This document shows, piece by piece, positions 28,755 to 41,080 of a stretch of 42,651 nucleotides of DNA (position 1 is the stretch's first letter; each line of letters begins with the position of its first letter). A program made the translations under genes and the position numbers. This stretch comes from Planctomycetota bacterium (GTDB lineage Bacteria > Planctomycetota > Planctomycetia > Pirellulales > Thermoguttaceae), in NCBI GenBank assembly GCA_029550925.1, contig JAKPGL010000067.1, forward strand, positions 1 through 42,651, read 5' to 3'. The notes under the pieces are model-generated. The model had not been told where the DNA came from and made no database searches. It saw only the letters and a list, made by a program, of their open reading frames with translations.

Positions 28755-28783
28755 TAAAGTCGTAATCTATAGGAGCATTGTCC

Positions 28784-30253
28784 ATGATCTTAACAACATT
28801 TTTTCCTGCTGTTGTGGCGGTGGTTTTTCTGTGGCCTTTTCCGGCTCTCTTCTGGTTAGGCGGCGTAGAAAAGAAACCGCCGGTAAAAGTCGATCTAACT
28901 ATCTTGCCTGCAAAAGAAAAGTACTATGTGGGAGAGCCAATTCGGGTGGGAATGCGGGTTGAGAATCTCTTGGGTGAAGATATATATCTTCCTCCGTGGA
29001 CTAAAAGTAACCGAGAATCGGCGTGGAAGTGCTACGGTGAGATTGAAGATTATCCAGGAGCTATCTCTGGACTTATGTCTTTACTAGTAGAGGGGTGCTT
29101 CTGTGGCTACGGGATCGGAGTGGAACCCCTGGAAAAGAAGGAAAAAGTGCCACCTCAAAGGAAATCAACGCCTGTATGGGAAACATTTATTCCCCAGATC
29201 CCGGGCAAGCTTAGTATCTGCGTTGAATTACGCGGCGACGCCATTGGAGTGAAAATAGAACCACGTTTTGGGCAAGAAGAGTCTTTTCCTTACTGCTCAG
29301 AATACTTCTTCAACGACAGGACATTAACGATTGAACCGACGATGTCTCCCGAAATGGCCAAACAATATAGCGCCAGTGCGAAGATGATCTTATCGGGGGA
29401 GACTCCATTGGCGGATCGGCTTGCTGAACTGGATAAAGTAGCAAACCAACGACACTATTTTGCTGCTCGCTTTGTGCATGATATCTGGCAGAAAGGCGAA
29501 CCAGGACCTGTCAAGGAGGCTGCTCTAAACCATCTGGTTTCTTTGTTGGAATATGGCACGGCCTATGAATCGCTGCCTGATCTATTGAAGGTGCTGAAGG
29601 ATTCTCAGACTCCCCTACCGATTCGTTTGCGAATCTTGGATTTTATAGGGAAGATGGGACTTATGGAAGATGCGCCTGGGTTTCCCATTGCCGAGGGCCA
29701 GGCTTTTTATTGCCTGACCAAGTCCAAGGTAGTGGGTAAGGAAGTGCAATGTGAGAAAACAGAACTTTGGCGCGAGATCGTGGAGACGTTGAAATCTGTC
29801 TCTAAAGATTCCCATGTCCTTTTGCGGGAAAAAGCGACGGCAATTTTAGCAGGCAAAGATCCGGAAACGCCTCCAGAAAAGCCTGAAGTACAAACCGAAC
29901 CTCAAAAACCTTCCGCTCCGGAGCCAGACGGCCCGACCAGCGAGAAGGAGGCGCTTTTTGTCCTCCGGAGCGGTTGGTCGGCTAGCCATCTAATGGATGA
30001 TATGGCAAACGTCTTCCACCAGAAGTACTTTCCCGACAAACCCCAAATCGATGTGAGCGTTAACGATGGTGTGATAGTGGCATGTAAAATGCATGAAGAC
30101 TATGGAGCTGTCGGTGATCTAGCTGTGGTGCGAAATTTATCAGCACCTGAGGCCGCCAAAGACGTGGGACCGGGAGTGGATGGAGTCCCGTTGGCAAAAT
30201 TTGTGGTCGTAGTGATCGTCAACGCTAAGAATCCGCTGCGACACTTGACTTGA
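28784..30253 (+). CDS. N-terminal part of a tandem PstS-like binding protein, cut by TGA
   Basis: The 489 residues begin with a membrane span or signal anchor (about 1-25). There follow a beta-sandwich-like domain (VGEPIRVGMRVENLLG, resembling proteinase-inhibitor or bacterial Ig-like folds), a helical repeat region (about 200-330), a Pro/Glu-rich linker (about 360-395) and the first half of a PBP-like_2 (PstS) domain ending PLAKFVVVVIVNAKNPLRHLT. At that point a TGA (30251-30253) stops translation, and the next codons in the same frame continue the domain without a break. AGGAG eight bases upstream of 28784 supports the start; a TTG at 28778 is poorer. Function, probably ligand binding outside the cytoplasm, is inferred only. 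The gene has lower GC content than the core. Confidence 0.7.
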   Translation: MILTTFFPAVVAVVFLWPFPALFWLGGVEKKPPVKVDLTILPAKEKYYVGEPIRVGMRVENLLGEDIYLPPWTKSNRESAWKCYGEIEDYPGAISGLMSLLVEGCFCGYGIGVEPLEKKEKVPPQRKSTPVWETFIPQIPGKLSICVELRGDAIGVKIEPRFGQEESFPYCSEYFFNDRTLTIEPTMSPEMAKQYSASAKMILSGETPLADRLAELDKVANQRHYFAARFVHDIWQKGEPGPVKEAALNHLVSLLEYGTAYESLPDLLKVLKDSQTPLPIRLRILDFIGKMGLMEDAPGFPIAEGQAFYCLTKSKVVGKEVQCEKTELWREIVETLKSVSKDSHVLLREKATAILAGKDPETPPEKPEVQTEPQKPSAPEPDGPTSEKEALFVLRSGWSASHLMDDMANVFHQKYFPDKPQIDVSVNDGVIVACKMHEDYGAVGDLAVVRNLSAPEAAKDVGPGVDGVPLAKFVVVVIVNAKNPLRHLT

Positions 30254-30301
30254 GAGGAACTCGACAAGATATTTCGTTGCAAGATCGACACCTGGGAAGA
30301 G

Positions 30302-32332
30302 ATGCGGGGAGGGGCCGCCGGCAAAATTGAACATTTCTTCCCACTCTTCGCCGCAACGGAAACTCTCATCTTCCGGGAATTGGTACTTCGAGACACAAAT
30401 CTCCCTTTCGCCCGGGATGAAGGAAAATTCGGCGCAGACCGCCAAAAATTCTCTTCCGACCAAATCATCGGCGCCGTAGTTAAGGAACCGAGAGCAATCG
30501 GATTTTGCTTCTACTCCCCAAATGACGGACCTTTAGACAACCGTGTACGTATTCTTGCGATTGCTATGGACAACAAGGCCGCCCCAGTATCGCCTACATT
30601 AGAGACGATCGCGGACGGCTCCTACCCTCTGACAGATACTTTGACAATTTATCTCCGCCGATGTGCTCCTCGGCCAGCCCACGAGTTTTGGAAATTTGCT
30701 ACCGGGCCGGAGGGAGCCAAAATCATTCGAGAGCATGGGCTGTGGCCGGAGTATGAGTTGAACAAAGTGCGGGGCAAGGCAAGGCTTAAGGAGTTTCTGG
30801 CTGGTAAAGGGCCGTTGGTGAGGATGTGGGGTCTGCGGGGCGGAGGAGGCCAGAGCGGCCAAAAAGGTGGGGACGCACTGGCCAAGGCATTGGCCCAGGT
30901 GTATGTGCAGGAAAAAGCGTTGTTGCAACTGCGCTACGAGGCCCGGCCTACCCTACAAGAGGCGGCTCAGGAGTTTTTGCGTTCTGGCGAGCTTCTGCTT
31001 GCCGACGCTGACCCTGTCCTTTTGTCCCAGGCCGATCTGCCCCCGCCAGAAGGCAAAGAGGCAAGGCCAGAAGGCAATGAACCGAAGACCGAGACAGAGC
31101 CGCCGCCAGCGAGCGGCCTGAAGACTGAGGACCAACGGCAGAAGCCAGAAGCCGCGGTACCGAAGGCAGAAACTAACGAGACCACCGAGCCGCCAGCCCA
31201 AGGCAGCGGCCTTTCCCCAAAACATAGCGAGCCTGGGGCAGACCGTAGAGACGCCAAACCTGAGTGCCAGCGGATCTTACTCGGCTATCGGGCGGTTGGG
31301 GTGATTGTGCATCGGGATAGCCCGGTTACGGAAATCACCCTGCAAGAGCTGCAAGATATCTATTGGGGGCGGTTGGAACGCTGGCCGTGGGCCGACGACC
31401 GAGCTGCTGCTGCACAGCGGCCTGAGGGCAGAGGGCAGACAAAAGGGACTTCGGCTACGGGCGCTAGCTCTGGTGGAAAGATTCGGCTCTATGGCCTGCC
31501 GAGCGACAGCCCGACCATGCAAGTTTTGGCGCGTCGCATGGCCCACCCTCTCGGCTCCGTGGGAGAGGGGGGCTTGCCAAGCAAGCCGGCTGAGGGGGAA
31601 AACTCCCCTCGCCCCGCCGTGGGAGAGGGCCAGGCTGCGGGGGCAAAAGCACCAGGCAAAGCCTCCGAAGCAATCCCAGTGGCGAAGGGTTCCGGTGGGC
31701 AAACAACCGCGCAAAAACCGGCTCCTATCATGCGCAGACCGGATACGCTTGGGGTGGTCAGGGCGTTGGCCGGGGATCCGGCGGGGTTGGGGTTTGTGGA
31801 TCTGGCGGCCATGCCTACAGAAGAAAGCTCCGTTCGGCTGGTGGCCATTTTACCGCCATCCAGTAGCTCCCCCGCCCTCGAGGAATCGGTAAATGCACAT
31901 CCGCCCGCGTCGAACGCCGCATCCACCGAGGCGTCGGAAGCCTCGGCCAAGGGGGCCAGTAAGGAAAACTCAGGCCAGGAGGGTTCGGGCCAGGCTGCAT
32001 CGGTGGGCCAACGTCAGGAGGAAACCACTCCTTCGGCCAAGCTTCCGCATCTTGCCAAACGGCTTCAGCCGCCCCGGCCAGACTGGCTTCCGCCGGGGTA
32101 TCCGCTGGCCGAGCCAGTATGGCTTTATGTCCATCGGCAGGCTAGTCCGCTGGCCAAAGAGTTCGCCCTGTTTCTGGCCGGTGGGGGAGACTTTTGGGCT
32201 GCTTGGGAGAAGCGTTCCGGCCCGCTTCCGCCTACGGAGCAGGAGCAGCCCGGCCGATTTCGCACCGACGGCTCGGCGAGCGAAGAACTCCGCTCTGCCT
32301 TGCAGGCTAACGGCCTGGTTCCGGCCCGATAA
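30302..32332 (+). CDS. C-terminal part of the tandem PstS-like binding protein
   Basis: This part of 676 residues is in the same frame as the preceding one. Homology starts directly after the TGA at 30254 (EELDKIFRCKIDTWEE, the usual PstS pattern), so the ATG at 30302 is only the first possible restart. It completes the first PBP-like domain (to about residue 165 of this part). A long Pro/Glu/Lys-rich linker follows, then a second PBP-like domain that begins LGYRAVGVIVHRDSP and has LQELQDIYWGRLERWPW. That second domain is interrupted by a low-complexity insertion encoded by palindromic DNA (31548-31640) and by another Ser/Ala-rich linker. No ribosome-binding site is obvious at 30302. Either the full gene is a pseudogene by one nonsense change, or two polypeptides are made. 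Confidence 0.6.
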   Translation: MRGGAAGKIEHFFPLFAATETLIFRELVLRDTNLPFARDEGKFGADRQKFSSDQIIGAVVKEPRAIGFCFYSPNDGPLDNRVRILAIAMDNKAAPVSPTLETIADGSYPLTDTLTIYLRRCAPRPAHEFWKFATGPEGAKIIREHGLWPEYELNKVRGKARLKEFLAGKGPLVRMWGLRGGGGQSGQKGGDALAKALAQVYVQEKALLQLRYEARPTLQEAAQEFLRSGELLLADADPVLLSQADLPPPEGKEARPEGNEPKTETEPPPASGLKTEDQRQKPEAAVPKAETNETTEPPAQGSGLSPKHSEPGADRRDAKPECQRILLGYRAVGVIVHRDSPVTEITLQELQDIYWGRLERWPWADDRAAAAQRPEGRGQTKGTSATGASSGGKIRLYGLPSDSPTMQVLARRMAHPLGSVGEGGLPSKPAEGENSPRPAVGEGQAAGAKAPGKASEAIPVAKGSGGQTTAQKPAPIMRRPDTLGVVRALAGDPAGLGFVDLAAMPTEESSVRLVAILPPSSSSPALEESVNAHPPASNAASTEASEASAKGASKENSGQEGSGQAASVGQRQEETTPSAKLPHLAKRLQPPRPDWLPPGYPLAEPVWLYVHRQASPLAKEFALFLAGGGDFWAAWEKRSGPLPPTEQEQPGRFRTDGSASEELRSALQANGLVPAR

Positions 32333-33185
32333 CCCGGCCGCTTCGATCCGCCACCTTGCCCTCCGACCGACCACCAGCACGATAGGTGTAGGTTGAAGCG
32401 GTCCCGGGAGTTTACCCAGTGTCGGAGTAGCCGAGGGGGAAGATTTTGGGTTTTGGATGTACAATTCGGCCTATTTGCGTTGCCAGCCCGTTGAACAGGT
32501 ACATTACCTTTTGGCAATCCGCCAAGGATGGTTCATCAGGGGGGGAGATGTTCGTATCCTTGGTTCCCCCACAGGGTTAGAGGCTCTAACAAAACGGCCT
32601 TTCCTACTCAGTTCCTCCAGCGGGTAGAATAGGTCGGCTTCGTTTTGTTAGAGCTTCAGAGTTTCTTAGAGGAGTTAAGTGGACTGGAGTGGGCCTCTTT
32701 TCCTGTGTTCCTTGGTCTTTCAATAGGTACAGCTGGCGGGAAGGGACGGGAGATTCTTCCTCATTTCTTGAGTGGGGCTAAAAGATTTGCACTTGGTGAA
32801 GCCCAAACCATAGGAAGATACCCCAGCCCTTTGGGTGGACTTTGGGAAGTCTCGCCGTTCTTCAACTCCTGCCTGGTTTACTTCTTTGACCCTCAAGTTC
32901 TTTGGCCCGATTGGGTGGTCAGAAATTGTGCTGACGTATATCAGGAACCCGGTTGTAAGGGGACCGGACTTGTAGGCCGCCCTTCCCGGACTGCAAAATA
33001 GGTTAAGGTTCGGTTATACTTCCGTATCTTCTGCGAGGGCGAAAACGGCTAGGTGGTGGTTACACGGGGCGTCCGCATGGAGTATGGGGCGGGTATTCCA
33101 CCCCACCAACAAGTTCTACGATCAAAGTTCAGCTACTAGAGACGGTTTAGACAATCAATACCTAGTTGTGGTTTTAGGAGCAGAT
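32333..33185. other. Intergenic region upstream of the helicase operon
   Basis: No credible gene was found in 853 bases. A reading frame at 32645-33001 starts inside the repeat and has no protein-like features. The region contains the family A repeat copy 2 (32583-32654) and must hold the promoter of the helicase-methyltransferase operon, probably between 33000 and 33170; no boxes could be named with confidence. Confidence 0.5.
32583..32654. repeat. Palindromic dispersed repeat, family A, copy 2
   Basis: Perfect 14-bp inverted ends GCTCTAACAAAACG (32583-32596) and CGTTTTGTTAGAGC (32641-32654). The interior, read on the minus strand, matches copy 1 at 7791-7872 (GACCTATTCT, GAGTAGGAA, GGCCGTTTTGTTAGAGC). 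The copies are in opposite orientation and differ mainly by a short length change near one end. Confidence 0.75.
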
Positions 33186-36100
33186 ATGCCAACCATTTAC
33201 GACAACATCGAGAAGCATTTTTTGGAGGGGCTGGAGAAGGTGATGGAGGGGGCGGTATCGGTCTCCTTTTGTGTGGGGTATTTGCATTTATGGGGCTGGC
33301 GGTTGTTGGCCGAGGGGATTGAGCGGTTGCCGAATCAGCCTGGCAAGCCGCCTTGTCGGATTTTGGTGGGGATGCATCGGCCTCCCGAAACGATTATGCG
33401 GGAAGTCCAAGGCCTTAAAAATTCTTCCAATGGCGGGGAAGAAACGATCGGCGGCTCTTTGCGCACCCAACGAAAAAGAAAGATCGTGGAAGACTTTAAA
33501 CGTCAACTGGAGTTTGGCATTCCGACCAAAGATGCCGAGACCACGCTTCAGCGGTTAGCCGCCCAGTTACGCGCCAAAAAGGTTCAGATCAAATCCTTTT
33601 TACGTTATCCTCTTCATGCCAAGCTCTATTTAGTGGAACGTCGGGATCCGATGGCTTCTCTGGTTGGGTTTGTGGGCAGCAGCAATTTCACTCACCCGGG
33701 CTTAACTGGCCAAGGGGAGCTCAATGTCGATGTGTTGGACCAGGATGCAGCTCAGAAGTTGGCCGATTGGTTTGAACGCCTTTGGCAAGACAATCTCGCC
33801 GTGGATATATCCGCCGAGTTGGCGGAACTGATTGAGAGTAGTTGGGCCTGTCAGCAAAATATCCGACCCTATCTGGTGTATTTGAAGATTGCTTATCATC
33901 TTAGCGAGGAAGCGCGTCAGGCCCCCGGTGAGTTCAAAATGCCGGACATCTTCGCCCAGGAGGAGACGCCCCTATTGGATTTTCAAGAGAAGGCCGTCTT
34001 TCAGGCCGCCAAATATCTTCTCACCCGCGGCGGCGCCTTGCTGGGCGACGTAGTGGGCTTGGGCAAGACCCTTATGGCCATCGCCATTGCCCGTATTCTC
34101 CAGGAGGACGATGATCTCCACAGTACCTTGATTATTTGTCCGCCCAAGTTGAAACCGATGTGGGAGCAATATTGTGAACGGTATAAGCTCATAGGGAAAG
34201 TTTGTTCGCTGGGCCATGTCCAATCGGAATTACCAAGCCTCTCCCGCCATCGCCTGGTGATTATCGATGAAAGCCATAATCTCCGAAATCGCGAAGGGAA
34301 GCGGTATCAGGCCATTCTCGATTACATCGAGCGGAATGAATCCCGCGTGTTGCTTCTGACGGCCACTCCTTTTAACAAGCATTATGAAGACTTGGGTAAT
34401 CAGCTTCGTCTGTTTGTGGACGAGGACCAGGATTTAGGCGTCCGGCCTGAGCGGTTTTTCCAGCAGTGGGCGAAAGAGGGCAAAACCGACGCCGATTTTC
34501 GCGCTCAGTATCAGATTTCTCCCACCACGCTCCGGGCCTTCGAAAAAAGTGAGTATCCCGAAGACTGGCAAGACCTTTTGCGCATGTTTATGGTTCGTCG
34601 TACCCGATCTTACATCCAGCGAAACTACGCTATGTATGATCCAAAAAAAGGCCGTTACTATGTCCTGCTGGGGGGCCAGCCCTTTTATTTGCCTACTCGG
34701 GAGGTCAAGACGGTCGGGTTTTCCGTCCAGGACGATTCCCCCTCGGATCCGTATGCTCAGCTTCTTTCTCAGCAGGTGGTTTCTCTTTTGGAGCGTTTGT
34801 ACTTACCGCGGTATGGACTGATCCACTATCTTCGGCCTGGAGCGGCAGAGACGGCATCTGCGGAGGAAAAAAAGATCATTGCCAATTTGAACCGGGCTGG
34901 TAGGCGGTTGATCGGCGTTTGTCGAACCAACTTTTTCAAACGTCTAGAGTCCAGCGGCTACAGTTTTCTGCTTTCTATTCGTCGGCACATTTTGCGGAAT
35001 CTGGTTACGCTTTATGCTCTTCAGAATGGCTTGCCGATTCCCATCGGCGTGCAGGATGTAGCGGCGATGGACCCAACCCAGGAGGACCGGGATGTCGATG
35101 CATTACTCGAGACGGTCGATCCCGAGCAGGAGCCCGAAGAAGCTCCGGAGAGTGTCGATTCTTCGGTCGATTCCACGGTCTGCCTAGATCGCCTGAAGGA
35201 CCAGGCAAAAGAAATTTACCACAGCTTTCAGCAAAATGCCCGTCGTTTCCAATGGATCGATGGGCGCTTTTTCACTCAGGAACTGTCCAGCGATTTGGAG
35301 GCCGACGTTACGGCCCTGAAGACCATTCTTGATCTGGTGCCCGTTTGGCGTTCTGAGGACGATCAGAAGCTTTGCGAACTCCTCCAGTTGCTCACGGGCA
35401 GGGATCGGGAGGAAAAAGTCCTTATCTTTACTCAGTTTGCCGACACCGCCCACTATCTCGGTCGGCAGCTCAAGCAGCGTGGCGTTACTCAGCTCGAAGT
35501 GGTTACTGGTCAAAGTCCCGACCCCTTGGCGTTGGCCTGCCGGTTTAGTCCTCGAAGTAACAAAGTGGATTTGCGCGGCCAAAATGAACTTCGTGTCCTG
35601 GTGGCCACGGATGTATTGGCCGAGGGCCAAAACCTTCAGGACTGTTATATTGTGGTCAATTACGATTTGCCTTGGGCGATTATTCGGCTGAGTCAGCGGG
35701 TGGGGCGGGTGGATCGGATCGGCCAAACCCACGACACGATCTTCGTCTATTCGTTTCTGCCTGCCGACGGTGTGGAGAGGATCATTGGGCTGCGCCGCCG
35801 ACTTTGCGACCGGCTTCAGATGAACCAGGAAGTCATCGGCACCGACGAATCCTTTTTTGGCGAGGCCGCAGAGAAGGCCTTGCGCGATTTGTATGCCGAG
35901 AATCCTTCTGTATTGAATGGCGACGAAACCGACGAGGACATCGACCTGGCCAGCATGGCCCTTCAGGTCTGGAATAGTGCCTCGGAGGCGGATCGCCGGG
36001 CCGCCGAGGCGTTGCCTTCTTTGGTCAGTACCACTGCTCCGCTTCGAGACAATCCGCCTGCCGGCATGATCACCTATCTTCGTTTTCCCAACGGCCTGGA

Positions 36101-36641
36101 CAGTCTGATTCGCGTCGATTCCCAAGGCCGGGTGGTTTCGCAATCGCTTTCTGCCATTTTCCGGGCGGTGGCCTGCCAACCCGAGACGCCGCCTCTGCCT
36201 CAGGCCCCCAATCATTACGAACTGATCAACTGCTCCGTCCAGGCCGCTTGTGCGGAAAGAGACCAACAAAAAAACCAACCGGGTGGTCAGCTCGGTACCT
36301 ACCGCTCCACCGCCCGAAAAGTCTATGAACGCCTAAAGGCCTTTCGCGAAAAGCTCCTCACCGGGGCCGCCTCCGCCTCGGTACCACTGGAGGACCTGGA
36401 CAAGGTGCTGAGCCAAATGCATCGGTATCCTCTTAAGGAAGGCGCCCGGGACAGTTTCCGCCGTCAGCTCCGGCTCAACATCACCGACCAAGAGCTTGCC
36501 GAAATGGCCCTTCATCTGCTCCAGCAGGAAAAGCTCTGTCAAATCACCGAATCCTCCGCCGACAGCCAGGAACCGCAGATTCTTTGCGCCCTGGGTTTGC
36601 GTCATCCTCATGAGGTTTCCTATTCAGGAGGTAATGAATGA
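33186..36641 (+). CDS. PLD-domain SNF2-type helicase of a putative defence cassette
   Basis: This 1151-residue protein joins two enzymes. Residues 1 to about 215 form a phospholipase D-like domain with one HxK motif (HAKLYL, about 144-149) and the GSSNFT motif shortly after. From about 265 on comes a superfamily 2 SNF2-type motor: Walker A GDVVGLGKT (about 287-295), Walker B variant IIDESHN (about 359), motif III TATPF (about 392), and the C-terminal lobe with LVATDVLAEGQNLQDC and motif VI RVGRVDRIGQ (about 837). The remaining 270 residues are helical and without a recognised domain. AGGAG before the ATG at 33186 fixes the start; an upstream ATG at 33084 is not supported. It is translationally coupled to the methyltransferase. 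Function in nuclease-helicase based restriction is inferred. Confidence 0.88.
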   Translation: MPTIYDNIEKHFLEGLEKVMEGAVSVSFCVGYLHLWGWRLLAEGIERLPNQPGKPPCRILVGMHRPPETIMREVQGLKNSSNGGEETIGGSLRTQRKRKIVEDFKRQLEFGIPTKDAETTLQRLAAQLRAKKVQIKSFLRYPLHAKLYLVERRDPMASLVGFVGSSNFTHPGLTGQGELNVDVLDQDAAQKLADWFERLWQDNLAVDISAELAELIESSWACQQNIRPYLVYLKIAYHLSEEARQAPGEFKMPDIFAQEETPLLDFQEKAVFQAAKYLLTRGGALLGDVVGLGKTLMAIAIARILQEDDDLHSTLIICPPKLKPMWEQYCERYKLIGKVCSLGHVQSELPSLSRHRLVIIDESHNLRNREGKRYQAILDYIERNESRVLLLTATPFNKHYEDLGNQLRLFVDEDQDLGVRPERFFQQWAKEGKTDADFRAQYQISPTTLRAFEKSEYPEDWQDLLRMFMVRRTRSYIQRNYAMYDPKKGRYYVLLGGQPFYLPTREVKTVGFSVQDDSPSDPYAQLLSQQVVSLLERLYLPRYGLIHYLRPGAAETASAEEKKIIANLNRAGRRLIGVCRTNFFKRLESSGYSFLLSIRRHILRNLVTLYALQNGLPIPIGVQDVAAMDPTQEDRDVDALLETVDPEQEPEEAPESVDSSVDSTVCLDRLKDQAKEIYHSFQQNARRFQWIDGRFFTQELSSDLEADVTALKTILDLVPVWRSEDDQKLCELLQLLTGRDREEKVLIFTQFADTAHYLGRQLKQRGVTQLEVVTGQSPDPLALACRFSPRSNKVDLRGQNELRVLVATDVLAEGQNLQDCYIVVNYDLPWAIIRLSQRVGRVDRIGQTHDTIFVYSFLPADGVERIIGLRRRLCDRLQMNQEVIGTDESFFGEAAEKALRDLYAENPSVLNGDETDEDIDLASMALQVWNSASEADRRAAEALPSLVSTTAPLRDNPPAGMITYLRFPNGLDSLIRVDSQGRVVSQSLSAIFRAVACQPETPPLPQAPNHYELINCSVQAACAERDQQKNQPGGQLGTYRSTARKVYERLKAFREKLLTGAASASVPLEDLDKVLSQMHRYPLKEGARDSFRRQLRLNITDQELAEMALHLLQQEKLCQITESSADSQEPQILCALGLRHPHEVSYSGGNE

Positions 36642-39600
36642 GCACGATTTTCGCTTCGGCCAACGATATCAAAGACCAGCTTGATACGATCACCCAGTCC
36701 AATACCTGTTCCGTGTTGCGCAAAATTTTTGCCGAGGTTCTTTGGTGGGACAATTTCTCTGGTTCGCCCATGCCGTTATCGATCGGGGCGCCGGTCTCGT
36801 GTGAGGTTCGGTTGGAGCCGGTGGCTCAGGCCGCGGGGTTACCTGTCTTTTTAGTCCGCTGGCCGAATCCAACTCTTCCTGGGGTAACGGCTCGGCGGGC
36901 TGTCCAGCGGGCTTTGAGCCAACGTTATGTCGAGCATCTGCTTTGTTATTTGACTTCCCAGGCGGACCAATTGGCGTTTGTTTGGGCCCGGCGGCGTCCG
37001 GACGGCAAGGTCGAGCTTCGCACGTTACCCTATCAGGTCGGCGCCCCGGCCCGAACCACCCTGGAGCAATTAGCTCGCCTCCGACTCGCCGAAGGCGAAT
37101 CCACCAGCCTCGCCCCCATCCAACTTCTCGACCGCCTCAACGACGCCTTCAACGTCGAAGCCGTCACCAAAAAGTTCTTTGAAGATTACAAAAGGGTCTT
37201 TGCTGATCTGCAGGATCGGCTGACTCAAGCCACCTCCGACAAGGTTTGGGCGCACGATTACGCCCTGCAACTGCTCAACCGCCTGATGTTTCTCTACTTC
37301 ATCCAGCGCAAAGGTTGGCTCGGAAATAATCCGAACTTTATGGCCGACTTCTGGCAGGCTTACAAATCCTCTGGCCAGCCCGAAAACAGCTTTTTCGACC
37401 GTTGGCTCTCCGTCTTATTCTTCGAGGCGTTCAACAACAAATTCCACGGTGGTCGCCGCTACTTTCCAGAAAAAATCTTTTCCGCCCTTGCACAAGCACC
37501 GTTTCTTAACGGCGGTCTGTTCACCGAAAACGATTTGGACACAAAACACGACCCAAAACTCCCTGACGATTTCTTCAGCGTGCTTTTTGACAAGTTCAAT
37601 GGCGCCACTCCCGGGTTTCTCCAACGCTACAACTTCACCATTGCCGAATCTAACCCCCTGGACATTGAGGTAGCTGTTGACCCCGAAATGATCGGCAAAG
37701 TCTATGAATCCCTGGTCAACATTACCTTTGAAGGGGTCACCGAAGAGGATCTTCGCGGTTCCGCAGGCATTTTCTACACACCGCGCGTTGAGATTGACCT
37801 GATGTGCCGCCTCAGCCTGACCGACGCCCTTGCCAACCGGCTCGGCCAGGACAAAAAGCCGCTCCTCTACGACGCCATTTTCGCCTATGACCCCCCCGAC
37901 AAAGAAGCCGCCGACCACGCCATCGCCAACGAGAATCTCTGGCCGAATCTAAACCAAGTTCTCCGCGAACTCACCGTTTGCGACCCTGCCTGCGGCTCCG
38001 GTTCGTTCTTGGTCGGCATGTTACTGGTGCTCGACGATCTTCAGGCCCGGGCCAACACGCAACTCGGCATCGAAGAAACCCCCTACGAACGCCGCCGCCG
38101 CATCATCGGCGAACAACTCTATGGCGTGGATATCATGGACTGGGCCGTCCACGTCGCCGAACTTCGTCTCTGGCTCCAATTGGTCGTCGAAACCGAACTC
38201 AAACCCGCCGAACTCCATTTCCGACCCCTCCTGCCCAACCTTTCCTTCAAAATCCGCCACGGCGACAGCCTTGTCCAGGAAATCGCCGGGATCGATCTCG
38301 GCCTACATCGCAGTCAACTCGATGTTCCCAACTACCTCAAAGGCAAGATCACCCAACTGAAAAGTAAGAAACTCCGCTTCTACCAGGGCGAAAATGGCCT
38401 TCGGGAAGGGGATCTCAAAAAGGAGGAGCTTGACCTCTTTCGCCAGATTCTTGCCCACAAACAGCAGACCTTACAGGAACAAATCAAAAATCTCACCCAA
38501 CAAATCCAGTCCCCTCCCCAACAGGGCGAACTCGACGGCATCGGCAGTGGCAAGGCCAAAGCAGAAGCACGCAAGCTCGAAGACCAGTGGAAAACCGAAC
38601 GTGCCGAAAAACAGGCCGAACTCCACCGCCTCGAACAAGCTCTCCACGCATTGCAACGTACCCAGCAGGTCCCCTTCGTCTGGGACATCGCCTTTGTGGA
38701 AATCTTCGAAGCTGACAAACGGGGCTTCGACATCGTCATCGGCAATCCGCCTTACGTTCGGCAGGAGATGATCGCTCCGCCCACGCTCAACCCGGCCGAC
38801 TTCGGCGGCGAAACGTCCGACCGCTGGAAAGAGCAGAAGAAAGCCTATAAAGCCAAACTCCAGCAGTCCGTCGCCGCTGCTTGGCCGAAATTCTTCCGCT
38901 ACAATCCCGCCAAGGCCGACTTCCGCAAGCTCGACGGCAAAAGCGACCTCTACATCTACTTCTACCTGCACGGGCTGGCGCTACTGAACCCGCAGGGCAG
39001 CTTCTGCTTTATCACCTCCAACTCCTGGCTCGACGTCGGCTACGGCGCCGACTTGCAGGAGTTTTTGCTCAAGCACAGCCACATCAAATTCATCCTCGAC
39101 AATGAACGCAAGCGCTCCTTCGCTCAGGCCGACGTCAACACGATCATCGCGCTGCTGGGTGCGCCCGATGAGCGCCGCGAGAGCGGCCTGGAGAAAACCG
39201 CCCGCTTCGTCATGTTCAAAGTCCCCTTCGAGGAGGTGCTCGACGCCGAAACGTTTAAGACCCTGGAAGCCGCCACCGAACACCAAAGCACCGACCGCTG
39301 GCGCATCTCCGTCTTACCCCAATGCCAGCTATTTGAGGAAGGCCTCGTCCGCGAGGAGGGCGAGGAGGAAACGCAACGCAAACCCAAACCATCGCGCGGC
39401 CCGCTCATCAAGACCGCCCGCTACGAAGCCAACAAATGGGGCGGCAAATACCTGCGCGCCCCGGAAATCTTCTTCACCATTCTGGAAAAGGGCAAAGGCA
39501 AGCTCGTCCGCCTCGGCGACATCGCCGAAGTACGCTACGGTATCAAGACCGGCGCTGACGGCTGGTTCCACGTCAAAGTGCTACGGCAAGAGGGCAATTT

Positions 39601-40369
39601 GGCTCTAATTAGGTCTGGTGACGGTTCTGAACATTTAGTGGAACAGCAATTTTTACGCCCATTGCTACGTTCGGCGAAAGAGTGTCCTTTTTACGAATTG
39701 CGGATGGAGCATATTGGGCATTTCTTGGTTGTTATAGACGTTCCTTATGATCAGCTTAAAGGGTATAAAGTAAGCGATTACGTTAGGCACGGTGAAACCT
39801 GCTTTTATCCTTCGAGGATAGGGGGTGGTATTCCAGCTACTCGGCCGACTTGCATGGCCCGCGGACGAGAATGGTATCGTCTCGCAATAGACCGCGGGAT
39901 GCCAATAACAGGTTTTTTCTTTAAATTGAGACGCAATATCCATGTCGTTCCCCTAAATTCAATTAATGCCGTGGGTGACGATGCATTGTATGAAATACGC
40001 ACTAGTGTCAACGATTTGATTCCGCTACTCAACTCAACCTTGATGATGTTTTTTCTTGAATTGTATGGGCGAACCCCTGGCGGTGGGAGCGGCCCTCTTG
40101 CGGTTATGGTCGAAGAGGTAAAACAATTGCCTGTATTAACACCCTTGCAATTTTCCGCTAAAGAAATTGAGGTTTTAATTGCAGCCTTTAAATCCATGAA
40201 GGCGAGAGCGGCGCAGCCAGTGACTGACGAAATCCACCAACCCGACCGTCGCGCCCTCGACGACGTGGTGTTCGACGTGTTGGGCTTGACGGCTGGGGAG
40301 CGGGAGGCGGTCTATGAGGCGGTGATGGAGCTGGTCCGCGCCCGCCTTGAAAAAGCAAAAAGTTTGTGA
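36638..40369 (+). CDS. Large class I adenine-type DNA methyltransferase with own target-recognition domain
   Basis: The 1243-residue protein has an N-terminal helical/beta region of unknown role (1 to about 400), then an N6-adenine methylase core. Motif I is VCDPACGSGSFL (about 447-458). Catalytic motif IV is GNPPYVRQE (about 702-710). A long charged coiled-coil insertion (about 590-690) lies between them. The C-terminal part (about 880-1230) is of the TaqI/Eco57I specificity type, with a closing helix near LEKAKSL. The start overlaps the helicase stop by four bases, with AGGAGG upstream. The DNA encoding residues about 988-1186 (39600-40195) is much more AT-rich than the flanks, as expected for an exchanged recognition domain. 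No nuclease motif was found in this protein. It probably marks self DNA for the helicase partner. Confidence 0.9.
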   Translation: MSTIFASANDIKDQLDTITQSNTCSVLRKIFAEVLWWDNFSGSPMPLSIGAPVSCEVRLEPVAQAAGLPVFLVRWPNPTLPGVTARRAVQRALSQRYVEHLLCYLTSQADQLAFVWARRRPDGKVELRTLPYQVGAPARTTLEQLARLRLAEGESTSLAPIQLLDRLNDAFNVEAVTKKFFEDYKRVFADLQDRLTQATSDKVWAHDYALQLLNRLMFLYFIQRKGWLGNNPNFMADFWQAYKSSGQPENSFFDRWLSVLFFEAFNNKFHGGRRYFPEKIFSALAQAPFLNGGLFTENDLDTKHDPKLPDDFFSVLFDKFNGATPGFLQRYNFTIAESNPLDIEVAVDPEMIGKVYESLVNITFEGVTEEDLRGSAGIFYTPRVEIDLMCRLSLTDALANRLGQDKKPLLYDAIFAYDPPDKEAADHAIANENLWPNLNQVLRELTVCDPACGSGSFLVGMLLVLDDLQARANTQLGIEETPYERRRRIIGEQLYGVDIMDWAVHVAELRLWLQLVVETELKPAELHFRPLLPNLSFKIRHGDSLVQEIAGIDLGLHRSQLDVPNYLKGKITQLKSKKLRFYQGENGLREGDLKKEELDLFRQILAHKQQTLQEQIKNLTQQIQSPPQQGELDGIGSGKAKAEARKLEDQWKTERAEKQAELHRLEQALHALQRTQQVPFVWDIAFVEIFEADKRGFDIVIGNPPYVRQEMIAPPTLNPADFGGETSDRWKEQKKAYKAKLQQSVAAAWPKFFRYNPAKADFRKLDGKSDLYIYFYLHGLALLNPQGSFCFITSNSWLDVGYGADLQEFLLKHSHIKFILDNERKRSFAQADVNTIIALLGAPDERRESGLEKTARFVMFKVPFEEVLDAETFKTLEAATEHQSTDRWRISVLPQCQLFEEGLVREEGEEETQRKPKPSRGPLIKTARYEANKWGGKYLRAPEIFFTILEKGKGKLVRLGDIAEVRYGIKTGADGWFHVKVLRQEGNLALIRSGDGSEHLVEQQFLRPLLRSAKECPFYELRMEHIGHFLVVIDVPYDQLKGYKVSDYVRHGETCFYPSRIGGGIPATRPTCMARGREWYRLAIDRGMPITGFFFKLRRNIHVVPLNSINAVGDDALYEIRTSVNDLIPLLNSTLMMFFLELYGRTPGGGSGPLAVMVEEVKQLPVLTPLQFSAKEIEVLIAAFKSMKARAAQPVTDEIHQPDRRALDDVVFDVLGLTAGEREAVYEAVMELVRARLEKAKSL
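40315..40361 (+). repeat. Direct repeat R1, within the methyltransferase 3' end
   Basis: This 47-bp segment encodes part of the C-terminal helix (EAVMELVRARLEK). It recurs at 40724-40770 with two mismatches, offset by 409 bp. The copies flank the HNH gene. Confidence 0.85.
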
Positions 40370-40399
40370 ACACAGAAAGACAGAAAGGAGGTGAGAAAA

Positions 40400-40654
40400 A
40401 TGGCATTTCCAGATGACGTCGTGAAGCAGGCATGGGATCGCGCCGGGGGCCGGTGCGAATGCACCCGCAGAAACCACGGACATCGGGAACGATGCAATCG
40501 ACCGCTTATTTGGTTTTATCGCGGCCTCGAACTGCCGGGCGGATGGGAAGCCCACCATAAGACAGCGGGTAAGGCCGGTGGGGCGGACACGTTGAGTAAT
40601 TGCGAGATTCTTTGCCAAGCGTGCCACAAGGCCACCCAGACGTATGGTAGTTGA
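40400..40654 (+). CDS. Small HNH endonuclease
   Basis: The 84-residue protein is a compact HNH nuclease. It starts with AWDRAGGRCEC, typical of this family. The core beta-beta-alpha-metal motif is EAHHKTA (His52/His53), SNCEILC (Asn67) and CQACHK (His76). Four or more cysteines (19, 21 or 32, then 72 and 75) probably bind a structural zinc. HNH proteins of this size nick or cut double-stranded DNA. The ATG at 40400 is chosen because GGAGG lies eight bases upstream; a GTG at 40391 overlaps that site. It begins 31 bases after the methyltransferase stop and is bracketed by the direct repeats, so it appears to have been added to the operon by a recombination event. Its role as the restriction nuclease is inference. 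Confidence 0.85.
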   Translation: MAFPDDVVKQAWDRAGGRCECTRRNHGHRERCNRPLIWFYRGLELPGGWEAHHKTAGKAGGADTLSNCEILCQACHKATQTYGS

Positions 40655-40723: not shown

Positions 40724-40770
40724 TGAGGCGGTGATGGAGCTAGTCCGCGCCCGCCTTGAAAAAACAAAAA
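40724..40770 (+). repeat. Direct repeat R2, vestigial methyltransferase 3' end
   Basis: This is the second copy of the 47-bp methyltransferase segment. It lies in a short open frame (ATG at 40644, stop at 40806-40808) that ends EAVMELVRARLEKTKSLL and a few more residues, overlapping the ATG of the next frame (40805). It probably represents the original 3' end of the methyltransferase before the HNH insertion. Confidence 0.8.
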
Positions 40771-40804
40771 GCCTCTTAAAAAAACCACCAATAGGAGGAC
40801 ATCG

Positions 40805-41080
40805 ATGAAACACTTAAATCACCCGAACGTGGTAGAAGCATTTAAGATGCTGCTCGAGGAACTGGACACCGCATTGAAAACCACCCGGCAGCAGCCGACC
40901 TGCCCGCCGAACCCTCGGCATCGGCAGGTCCATAAGACGCCCTATTCCGATCCACGCCTGAACGGGAGCGAACTTTTCGCCGTCCATCGCCTCCAAACCA
41001 CCCCGACCCGGCAGCCTCACACAAACACAATGCAGAGCCCCCTTGCTTTTCAAAAAGAAAACAACGCAACATGTTCATAG
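40805..41080 (+). CDS. Small frame with gene-like start, possibly truncated
   Basis: A good ribosome-binding site (AGGAGG seven bases upstream) and a helix-like beginning (KHLNHPNVVEAFKMLLEEL) suggest a real gene start, coupled to the vestigial methyltransferase end by an ATGA overlap. After about residue 30 the sequence becomes Pro/Thr/Arg-rich and coincides with a palindromic DNA element (40897-40930), so the rest looks like non-coding DNA read as protein. The likely picture is a small gene whose 3' part was lost. No family can be assigned. Confidence 0.35.
   Translation: MKHLNHPNVVEAFKMLLEELDTALKTTRQQPTCPPNPRHRQVHKTPYSDPRLNGSELFAVHRLQTTPTRQPHTNTMQSPLAFQKENNATCS
40897..40930. repeat. Nested hairpin
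   Basis: GACCTGCC (40897-40904) pairs with GGCAGGTC (40923-40930), and an inner GCCGA/TCGGC stem (40906-40910 with 40915-40919) continues it. It interrupts the small frame at 40805. No T run follows, so it is more like a palindromic repeat than a terminator. Confidence 0.5.

Follow-up and report, generated by a model that had tools for sequence, protein, structure and literature searches.

A PLD-SNF2 helicase-nuclease and an Eco57I-type methyltransferase: apparently a widespread and mostly unnamed type of bacterial restriction system

The subject of this report is a pair of adjacent genes on a 42,651-nucleotide stretch of DNA from a Planctomycetota bacterium (JAKPGL010000067.1, hereafter the window), which is the whole of contig C38 in its own genome, G000 (97.5% complete). 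On the plus strand of the window, a PLD-SNF2 gene is followed by an Eco57I-type methyltransferase gene and then by a small HNH gene. Judged from sequences and predicted structures, the first two genes probably encode (we estimate a probability of about 0.72) a two-subunit ATP-dependent restriction-modification (RM) system, which resembles a Type ISP enzyme split in two and carries a SauUSI-like PLD nuclease. Such pairs appear to form a widespread type of bacterial restriction system that for the most part has no name. A sequence-only reading of the same DNA had proposed a self-contained restriction-like system, and this proposal is supported by the recurrence of the pair in 72 of 73 testable related loci and by the intact motifs. 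The features of the two genes are as follows.

33186..36641, plus strand: PLD-SNF2 helicase-nuclease (putative restriction/translocation subunit), 1151 amino acids (aa); from Pfam, the start of relatives and a structure model
33543..33785, plus strand: PLD nuclease domain, PLDc_2, P0001 residues 154-234; Pfam E 2.6e-11
34044..35723, plus strand: SNF2-type ATPase motor with Walker A GDVVGLGKT (321-329), DESH (395-398) and Helicase_C (762-880); from Pfam, alignment and structure match
36638..40369, plus strand: Eco57I-type adenine methyltransferase, 1243 aa, which presumably contains its own target recognition region; from Pfam, motifs and model
37982..38755, plus strand: methyltransferase motifs from DPACGSG (motif I, S-adenosylmethionine binding) to NPPY (motif IV, catalytic), both intact in the alignment
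39275..40366, plus strand: presumed target recognition domain, residues ~880-1243, assigned by comparison with the rapidly diverging tail seen in relatives

The open frame of the helicase spans 33084-36641. Because relatives begin at the methionine at 33186 (residue 35 of P0001, nearly invariant), the start that gives a 1151-aa protein is right. Residue numbers of P0001 count from the 33084 open reading frame (ORF), and those of the 1151-aa protein are 34 lower (H178 = H144). The sequence-only reading had described a 1151-residue protein with a PLD domain and an SNF2 motor, overlapping a 1243-residue adenine-type methyltransferase by 4 bp. The start and length of the former are borne out by the relatives and its domains by Pfam, and the overlap (36638-36641) and the type of the latter by the coordinates and the Eco57I match. 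The PLD, SNF2, Helicase_C, Eco57I and HNH matches all passed the Pfam cut-offs.

The PLD domain contains a single HxK motif (H178 and K180), GSSN at 198-201 and E212 (H144, K146, G164-N167 and E178 in the 1151-aa numbering), and these residues are invariant in 39 of 39 aligned sequences, the window included. The N-terminal part also matches the RE_NgoFVII PLD family. The motor was recognised by SNF2-rel_dom (E 1.1e-14) and Helicase_C (E 1.5e-15). The predicted model of the helicase (mean pLDDT [predicted local distance difference test] 78.4, predicted template modelling score [pTM] 0.69) matches SNF2 ATPases in a structure search, the best being 1z63 with a Z score of 19.4. The arrangement of a PLD nuclease fused N-terminally to a superfamily 2 (SF2) motor, as in SauUSI, was found by both Pfam and the model, in which the two parts together match SauUSI (7clg; Z 17.3, 436 residues, model residues 1-918). 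The large root-mean-square deviation (rmsd) of 27.2 Å arises because the domains are placed differently in the model and in 7clg. The C-terminal part was barely covered by the structure search and gave no match there, which is no evidence for a new fold, and an SRA-type domain had no Pfam match in this same barely covered part. Among defence profiles, the best PADLOC model for the helicase was C3a139 (HKD+Snf2), which we take to be a type III CRISPR accessory. The score with the NCBIfam model phospholipD_antiphage (NF042964) was 142.6 bits, below the cut-off of 1100.

The methyltransferase matches the Pfam families Eco57I (E 1.6e-31) and MmeI_Mtase (E 4.8e-13), and a sequence search of the PDB gave no match at E ≤ 1e-3. 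Its model, covering residues 1-1200, has a pLDDT of 58.7 and a pTM of 0.55, and most of residues 882-1200 lie below pLDDT 50. In the structure comparison the model resembled CamA (Z 21.2), BrxX (Z 20.9, 463 residues), MmeI (Z 17.9) and DrdV, as well as the Type ISP enzymes LlaBIII (Z 19.6, 390 residues, rmsd 4.9) and LlaGI (Z 19.4, 382 residues, rmsd 5.3), whose Z scores are equalled or exceeded by several other methyltransferases. The N-terminal domain had no structure match, which is not evidence of a new fold; in the model this region shows a plausible alpha-beta-beta-beta-alpha-beta order. At the level of sequence motifs, no conserved PD-(D/E)XK or (D/E)xK was found in residues 1-172 across 27 rows, and the only charged positions conserved at ≥80% there are R86, E99, R119, R128, E154 and R166. 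Because a conserved PD-(D/E)XK is missing, the protein does not appear to be a Type IIG enzyme that cuts by itself, despite its best PADLOC model. A second methyltransferase of the window's type (type B, see below) is encoded on another contig of the own genome (C24, 144-3266; L119), with no helicase on that contig; this gene runs off the contig end, and its product is 44-49% identical to the window methyltransferase in two comparisons.

A 12-row helicase alignment, searched against 84,980 species genomes, gave at least 589 matching stretches, of which at least 577 were confirmed at E ≤ 1e-3. The related loci discussed here are the best 80 of these confirmed stretches, that is, the nearest relatives, together with five from viral contigs (85 loci). 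Methyltransferases in these loci were identified through BLAST matches to known reference sequences. A methyltransferase ORF lies at most 2 kb downstream of the helicase in 75 of the 80 loci; those without one are L053, with 8,994 nt available downstream, and L062, L069, L077 and L102, with <1 kb each. When only loci with ≥1 kb past the helicase are counted, 72 of 73 have the methyltransferase within 2 kb, always on the same strand (56 full-length, 12 cut by the contig end, three in broken frames and one, L066, a 43-aa remnant). The gap between the two genes is ≤30 nt in 44 of the 75 and >200 nt in 26. The pairing is more than chance. Within the phylum, a 45-row profile matched 16 of 392 genomes at E ≤ 1e-150, and the window helicase matched five of 60 near relatives at E ≤ 1e-30, the own genome being included in both counts. 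A close helicase homolog (≥47%) occurs among these 60 only in the own genome, G002, G026 and G040, that of G025 being distant. The same pair is carried on plasmids of Synechocystis, Anabaena, Pelobacter and Rhodococcus. The idea that the pair on the Synechocystis plasmid pSYSX makes the bipartite GGAN7TTGG methylation was dropped, because PMC6560206 assigns this motif to slr6095, an annotated Type I system on pSYSX.

The source of specificity is indicated by the part of the methyltransferase that follows motif IV, here called the tail; the part up to motif IV is called the core. From 65 loci with a methyltransferase of >1000 aa, we obtained 31 pairs (32 loci, with members shared) whose helicases are ≥75% identical. 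The mean identities over these pairs were 79.6% for the helicase, 74.6% for the core and 31.5% for the tail. The tail lay >25 points below the core in 27 pairs, and in 30 it was less alike than the least conserved 200-residue window of the helicase. In the natural pair L039/L046, for example, the helicases are 91% and the tails 33% identical. The entire methyltransferase is foreign in L044-L114 and L044-L108 (core 42-45%), the tails of L042-L070 are 84% alike with core and helicase at ~75%, and the tail of L043-L049 falls by 23 points. In these alignments, the tail divergence has the pattern of an exchange of specificity domains. Because the restriction subunit stays constant while specificity changes, specificity must come from the partner; it probably lies in the methyltransferase and is borrowed by the helicase-nuclease. 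The helicase-nuclease does not change with the tail, and therefore the two proteins most likely act together in a single complex, in the manner of Type I, III and ISP systems and unlike the independent nuclease and methylase of ordinary Type II. A distantly related pair was seen on the Lactococcus plasmid pJM1F (L150, 5359-10164), where the methyltransferase is followed by a second, inverted specificity-domain gene (TaqI-like) and an Mpi-family DNA invertase, which is probably an arrangement for phase-variable targeting.

Trees were calculated from 30 of the 85 loci, to which sequences from plasmids and near relatives were added; the methyltransferase tree was a quick one (LG+G4) and the helicase tree a careful one (mixture model, 39 rows). 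On the methyltransferase tree, the types A1 (22 rows) and A2 (11 rows) each form one clade, and type B of the window groups with four distant relatives and the own-genome paralog with a support of 99. Type B is not one clade on this tree; it requires two changes, which are weakly settled, and its four rows include two fragments. On the helicase tree, the four B rows (the window, the same-genus L015 and the Chloroflexota L034 and L035) form one clade (100/100), and A1 needs 10 changes, at least four of them forced by starred branches, with 9-11 in bootstraps. Because A1 is scattered on the helicase tree and is a clade on the methyltransferase tree, A1 and A2 partners appear to have been exchanged repeatedly; the disagreement of the two trees thus implies partner swaps.

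On the basis of these observations, we propose the following mechanism. The methyltransferase, which would combine modification and specificity in one chain, would read the DNA target by its C-terminal domain and methylate adenine there. The PLD-SNF2 protein, which appears to have no target recognition of its own, would dock on the methyltransferase at an unmethylated site, where the methyltransferase would hand the DNA over to the motor. Once triggered by the target, the motor would pump along the DNA by ATP hydrolysis, and a cut would be made when two PLD half-sites meet, as in SauUSI. Because each chain contains one conserved HxK, the window protein probably also needs two chains per cut. 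The system may thereby protect its host from phages. The roles that the sequence-only reading had given to the genes, with the PLD domain as the likely cutter, the helicase as the likely translocase and the methyltransferase as the enzyme that marks self DNA, agree with this scheme as predicted roles.

Several points weigh against this interpretation. Methylation, cleavage and phage defence are predictions from sequence and models. The evidence for tail swapping comes from A-type methyltransferases, and the window's type has one full comparator, L034. The two proteins are 32% and 20% identical over residues 1001-1200, 55-60% over residues 801-1000 and 45-76% over the core, so that the sharp fall is restricted to residues 1001-1200. 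The methyltransferase tail lacks a confident fold in the model (pLDDT <50), and four of the 31 pairs do not show the >25-point drop. L053 has no methyltransferase downstream, and L066 has only a remnant. In addition, the +5 position after the PLD lysine is a glutamate in both SauUSI and the window protein, yet it is not conserved in the family.

A third gene recurs in the related loci. A DprA-like gene (~150-225 aa) was found ≤3 kb downstream of the methyltransferase in 35 of 56 loci versus one of 64 in the upstream control, where loci with ≥1.5 kb beyond the methyltransferase were counted and the profile had been derived from 23 of the same DprA-like proteins. Two members were scanned with PF02481 (cut-off 29.6 bits), of which one passed (54.8) and the other failed (24.8), and one member scanned with the NCBIfam dprA model did not reach its cut-off (45.9 versus 191). 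The third gene is therefore a relative of DprA, not DprA itself, and it is a candidate third component (in loci among L038-L118). In L042, a protein that the Pfam scan assigned as MTaX1-HNH_2 directly follows the methyltransferase and precedes the DprA-like gene, and L070 has a mate of this protein by clustering. Other neighbours were noted in single loci. VapC-type toxin genes lie between helicase and methyltransferase in L003 and L019 (annotated) and in L068 and L078 (by eye). An ATP-binding protein and a small protein (annotated as DUF4276 in L004) follow A2-type methyltransferases in L044, L094 and L004. The genes upstream of the pair in L016 (3072-6520), from a genome of the same family, resemble type III CRISPR (Cmr) by eye. 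In the window, 28778-32332 encodes two proteins, one without a Pfam match and one a 676-aa phosphate-binding-like protein with long low-complexity stretches, and the remaining scanned proteins belong to metabolism and the cell envelope or have no Pfam assignment.

Downstream of the pair, the window contains the following features.

40315..40362, plus strand: copy 1 of a 48-nt direct repeat, the end of the methyltransferase gene; from repeat comparison
40400..40654, plus strand: small HNH nuclease gene, 84 aa from ATG 40400 (87 aa from GTG 40391), probable local accessory; from Pfam and ribosome site
40724..40771, plus strand: copy 2 of the 48-nt repeat, 96% identical, beyond the HNH gene and without methyltransferase sequence upstream; from repeat comparison

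The HNH ORF (40391-40654; Pfam HNH E 6e-8) has the HH...N...H residues. Its start is most likely ATG 40400, which lies directly behind an AGGAGG-like ribosome site; the gap from the methyltransferase stop is then 30 nt, so that the gene itself reported by the sequence-only reading stands and its 31-bp spacing does not. No homolog was detected in 59 near relatives (E ≤ 1e-8), in the 391 other genomes of the phylum (392 searched, E ≤ 1e-5), or in plasmids or phages (E ≤ 1e-3). With one sequence pattern, which fits the window protein, no small ORF resembling HNH was detected downstream of the helicase in the 85 loci, 57 of which extend ≥4.7 kb past it. The HNH gene sits between two copies of the end of the methyltransferase tail, and behind each copy lie a ribosome site and an ORF. 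We read the repeat as the scar of a rearrangement that may have brought the HNH gene in. An origin as a transposon target-site duplication is unlikely because 48 nt is too long. The ORF behind copy 2 (40805-41080, 91 aa) has a good ribosome site and no family match, and it is possibly what remains of a former downstream gene. The HNH gene is probably not core and is an accessory local to this one locus. The idea that it is a part of the system or a substitute nuclease is thus not supported; of the three genes together, the pair recurs and the neighbouring HNH gene does not.

Four other explanations were considered. It is highly improbable that the pair is a partial or derived class 1 form of DISARM (defence island system associated with restriction-modification; DrmD plus DrmMI) that works with drmA and drmB encoded elsewhere. 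The helicase and the methyltransferase do match the DrmD (142 bits) and DrmMI (76 bits) models, and the MZB/DUF1998 domain, presumably the domain of DrmB, occurs somewhere in 23 of 50 pair-carrying genomes. However, 142 bits is far under the NCBIfam DrmD cut-off of 610, and each of the 30 MZB places lies outside the related loci, which extend ≤9 kb in either direction. In the own genome, neither DrmD (E ≤ 1e-150) nor MZB gave a match (the MZB control was positive in 8 of 14 genomes), no dedicated search for DrmA having been made. Eight DrmD proteins, every one of them from this phylum, group in a clade apart on a quick tree of 53 rows that carried long-branch warnings. DISARM was rejected on these results. 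The comparison with class 1 made in the sequence-only reading holds as a likeness of domains and fails as membership in DrmD, and its statement that drmB is absent from the window agrees with the missing MZB domain. Both drmD and drmMII have been reported without complete DISARM (PMC9716671). Nearly as improbable is a Type IIG methyltransferase that cuts by itself beside an unrelated helicase. The best PADLOC match of the methyltransferase, REase_MTase_IIG (1.9e-52), points in this direction, and REBASE types the methyltransferase of a Lactococcus relative as Type IIG (PMC6098607). It is opposed by the adjacency of the two genes in the related loci and by the N-terminal region, which lacks the conserved nuclease motif even though its alpha-beta order is plausible.

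We also regard as very unlikely a three-component system in which HNH is the main or required nuclease. The orientation, spacing, ribosome site and HH...N...H residues of the gene would suit such a role, as would the different proteins that directly follow the methyltransferase in L042 and L070, but neither the homology searches nor the pattern scan found a counterpart, and the gene lies between the two copies of the methyltransferase tail. Instead of classical restriction, the pair might carry out abortive infection or serve as a sensor that responds to methylation, with the DprA-like gene and the toxin-antitoxin inserts making it a multi-layer device. The downstream enrichment of the DprA-like gene and the VapC-type genes between the core genes (annotated in two loci, by eye in a few others) would fit this explanation, which we consider unlikely; the window contains neither a DprA-like gene nor a VapC-type insert, and the intact PLD and motor residues favour a direct attack on DNA.

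The two-subunit RM system favoured here could be part of something broader. More tentatively, and with some doubt, we suggest a separate, very widespread RM class in which three or more methyltransferase lineages, with freely exchanged tails, use the same conserved PLD-SNF2 cutting motor, which itself does not recognise targets. A DprA-like protein would often be the third subunit and would handle or sense cut DNA. The window would then represent a less common variant, whose methyltransferase lineage is distinct and whose HNH gene lies where relatives often carry the DprA-like gene. If the two-subunit interpretation is right, many loci annotated as 'helicase-related protein' plus 'DNA methyltransferase', or called Type IIG from the methyltransferase alone, would be ATP-dependent two-subunit restriction systems. 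The natural tail exchanges would supply ready-made pairs in which to study the steering of one common cutting motor by recognition domains that can be swapped, and the DprA-like gene that recurs beside the pair would be a further component open to testing.

The layout differs from the standard type I, II, III and BREX (bacteriophage exclusion) layouts, as the sequence-only reading had stated, and the DISARM layout is likewise not matched. A general Pfam scan of 28 window proteins found no specificity-subunit family of a Type I RM system, and the R-like protein is the PLD-SNF2 protein. DISARM class 1 shares the SNF2 helicase and the adenine methyltransferase with the window, but here PLD is fused to the helicase, in addition to the differences in MZB and helicase clade given above. 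The BREX-related Type-2 system (DUF499, N6-methyltransferase, HKD-SNF2 and DUF3780; PMC12839542) and the COG1743-DUF499-SNF2-nuclease system (PMC7641849) also pair an HKD/PLD-SNF2 fusion with an N6-methyltransferase, whereas, as described there, they are centred on the DUF499 ATPase and use another methyltransferase family. DUF499 had no match in the own genome and none in 199 genomes of the phylum (E ≤ 1e-50; control positive in 1 of 14 genomes), and this candidate was rejected on these results. MORC-type RM systems, as outlined in PMC2292703, were rejected because no GHKL-type family was present among the 28 proteins scanned.

The nearer functional parallels, missed by the sequence-only reading, which had named DISARM only, are Type ISP, SauUSI and a related pair described in 2018. 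In Type ISP enzymes, motor, nuclease, methyltransferase and target recognition domain work together in one chain, and the nuclease is not known to be of the PLD type. The methyltransferase model resembles the fold of LlaBIII and LlaGI, as scored above, whereas the window system would be divided between two genes. SauUSI, a Type IV enzyme, is like the window helicase in that an N-terminal PLD domain, with a single HxK in each chain, is joined to an SF2 motor; its PLD domain dimerises and its motor translocates (PMC7913695). According to the same source, SauUSI differs in being a single protein, whose SRA-type domain reads 5-methylcytosine, without a methyltransferase.

The 2018 description concerns orf33-orf35 of plasmid pLd8 from Lactococcus lactis FM03P, presented as a putative RM system (PMC6098607). 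In the part of that paper concerned with it, the authors proposed that the PLD domain cuts and noted the likeness to DISARM class 1, so that the basic idea is already in print. The literature searched gave no description of how broadly the pair occurs, of its partner swaps and tail exchange or of its association with the DprA-like gene, and names in other papers, REBASE or DefenseFinder are possible. A comparable Lactococcus pair, on pJM1F, is 30% (helicase, best segment) and 28% (methyltransferase) identical to that of the window. The pLd8 system, which is likened to the window by its description, likewise places a PLD, SNF2 and Helicase_C protein beside an N6-adenine methyltransferase with its own recognition domain (PMC6098607).

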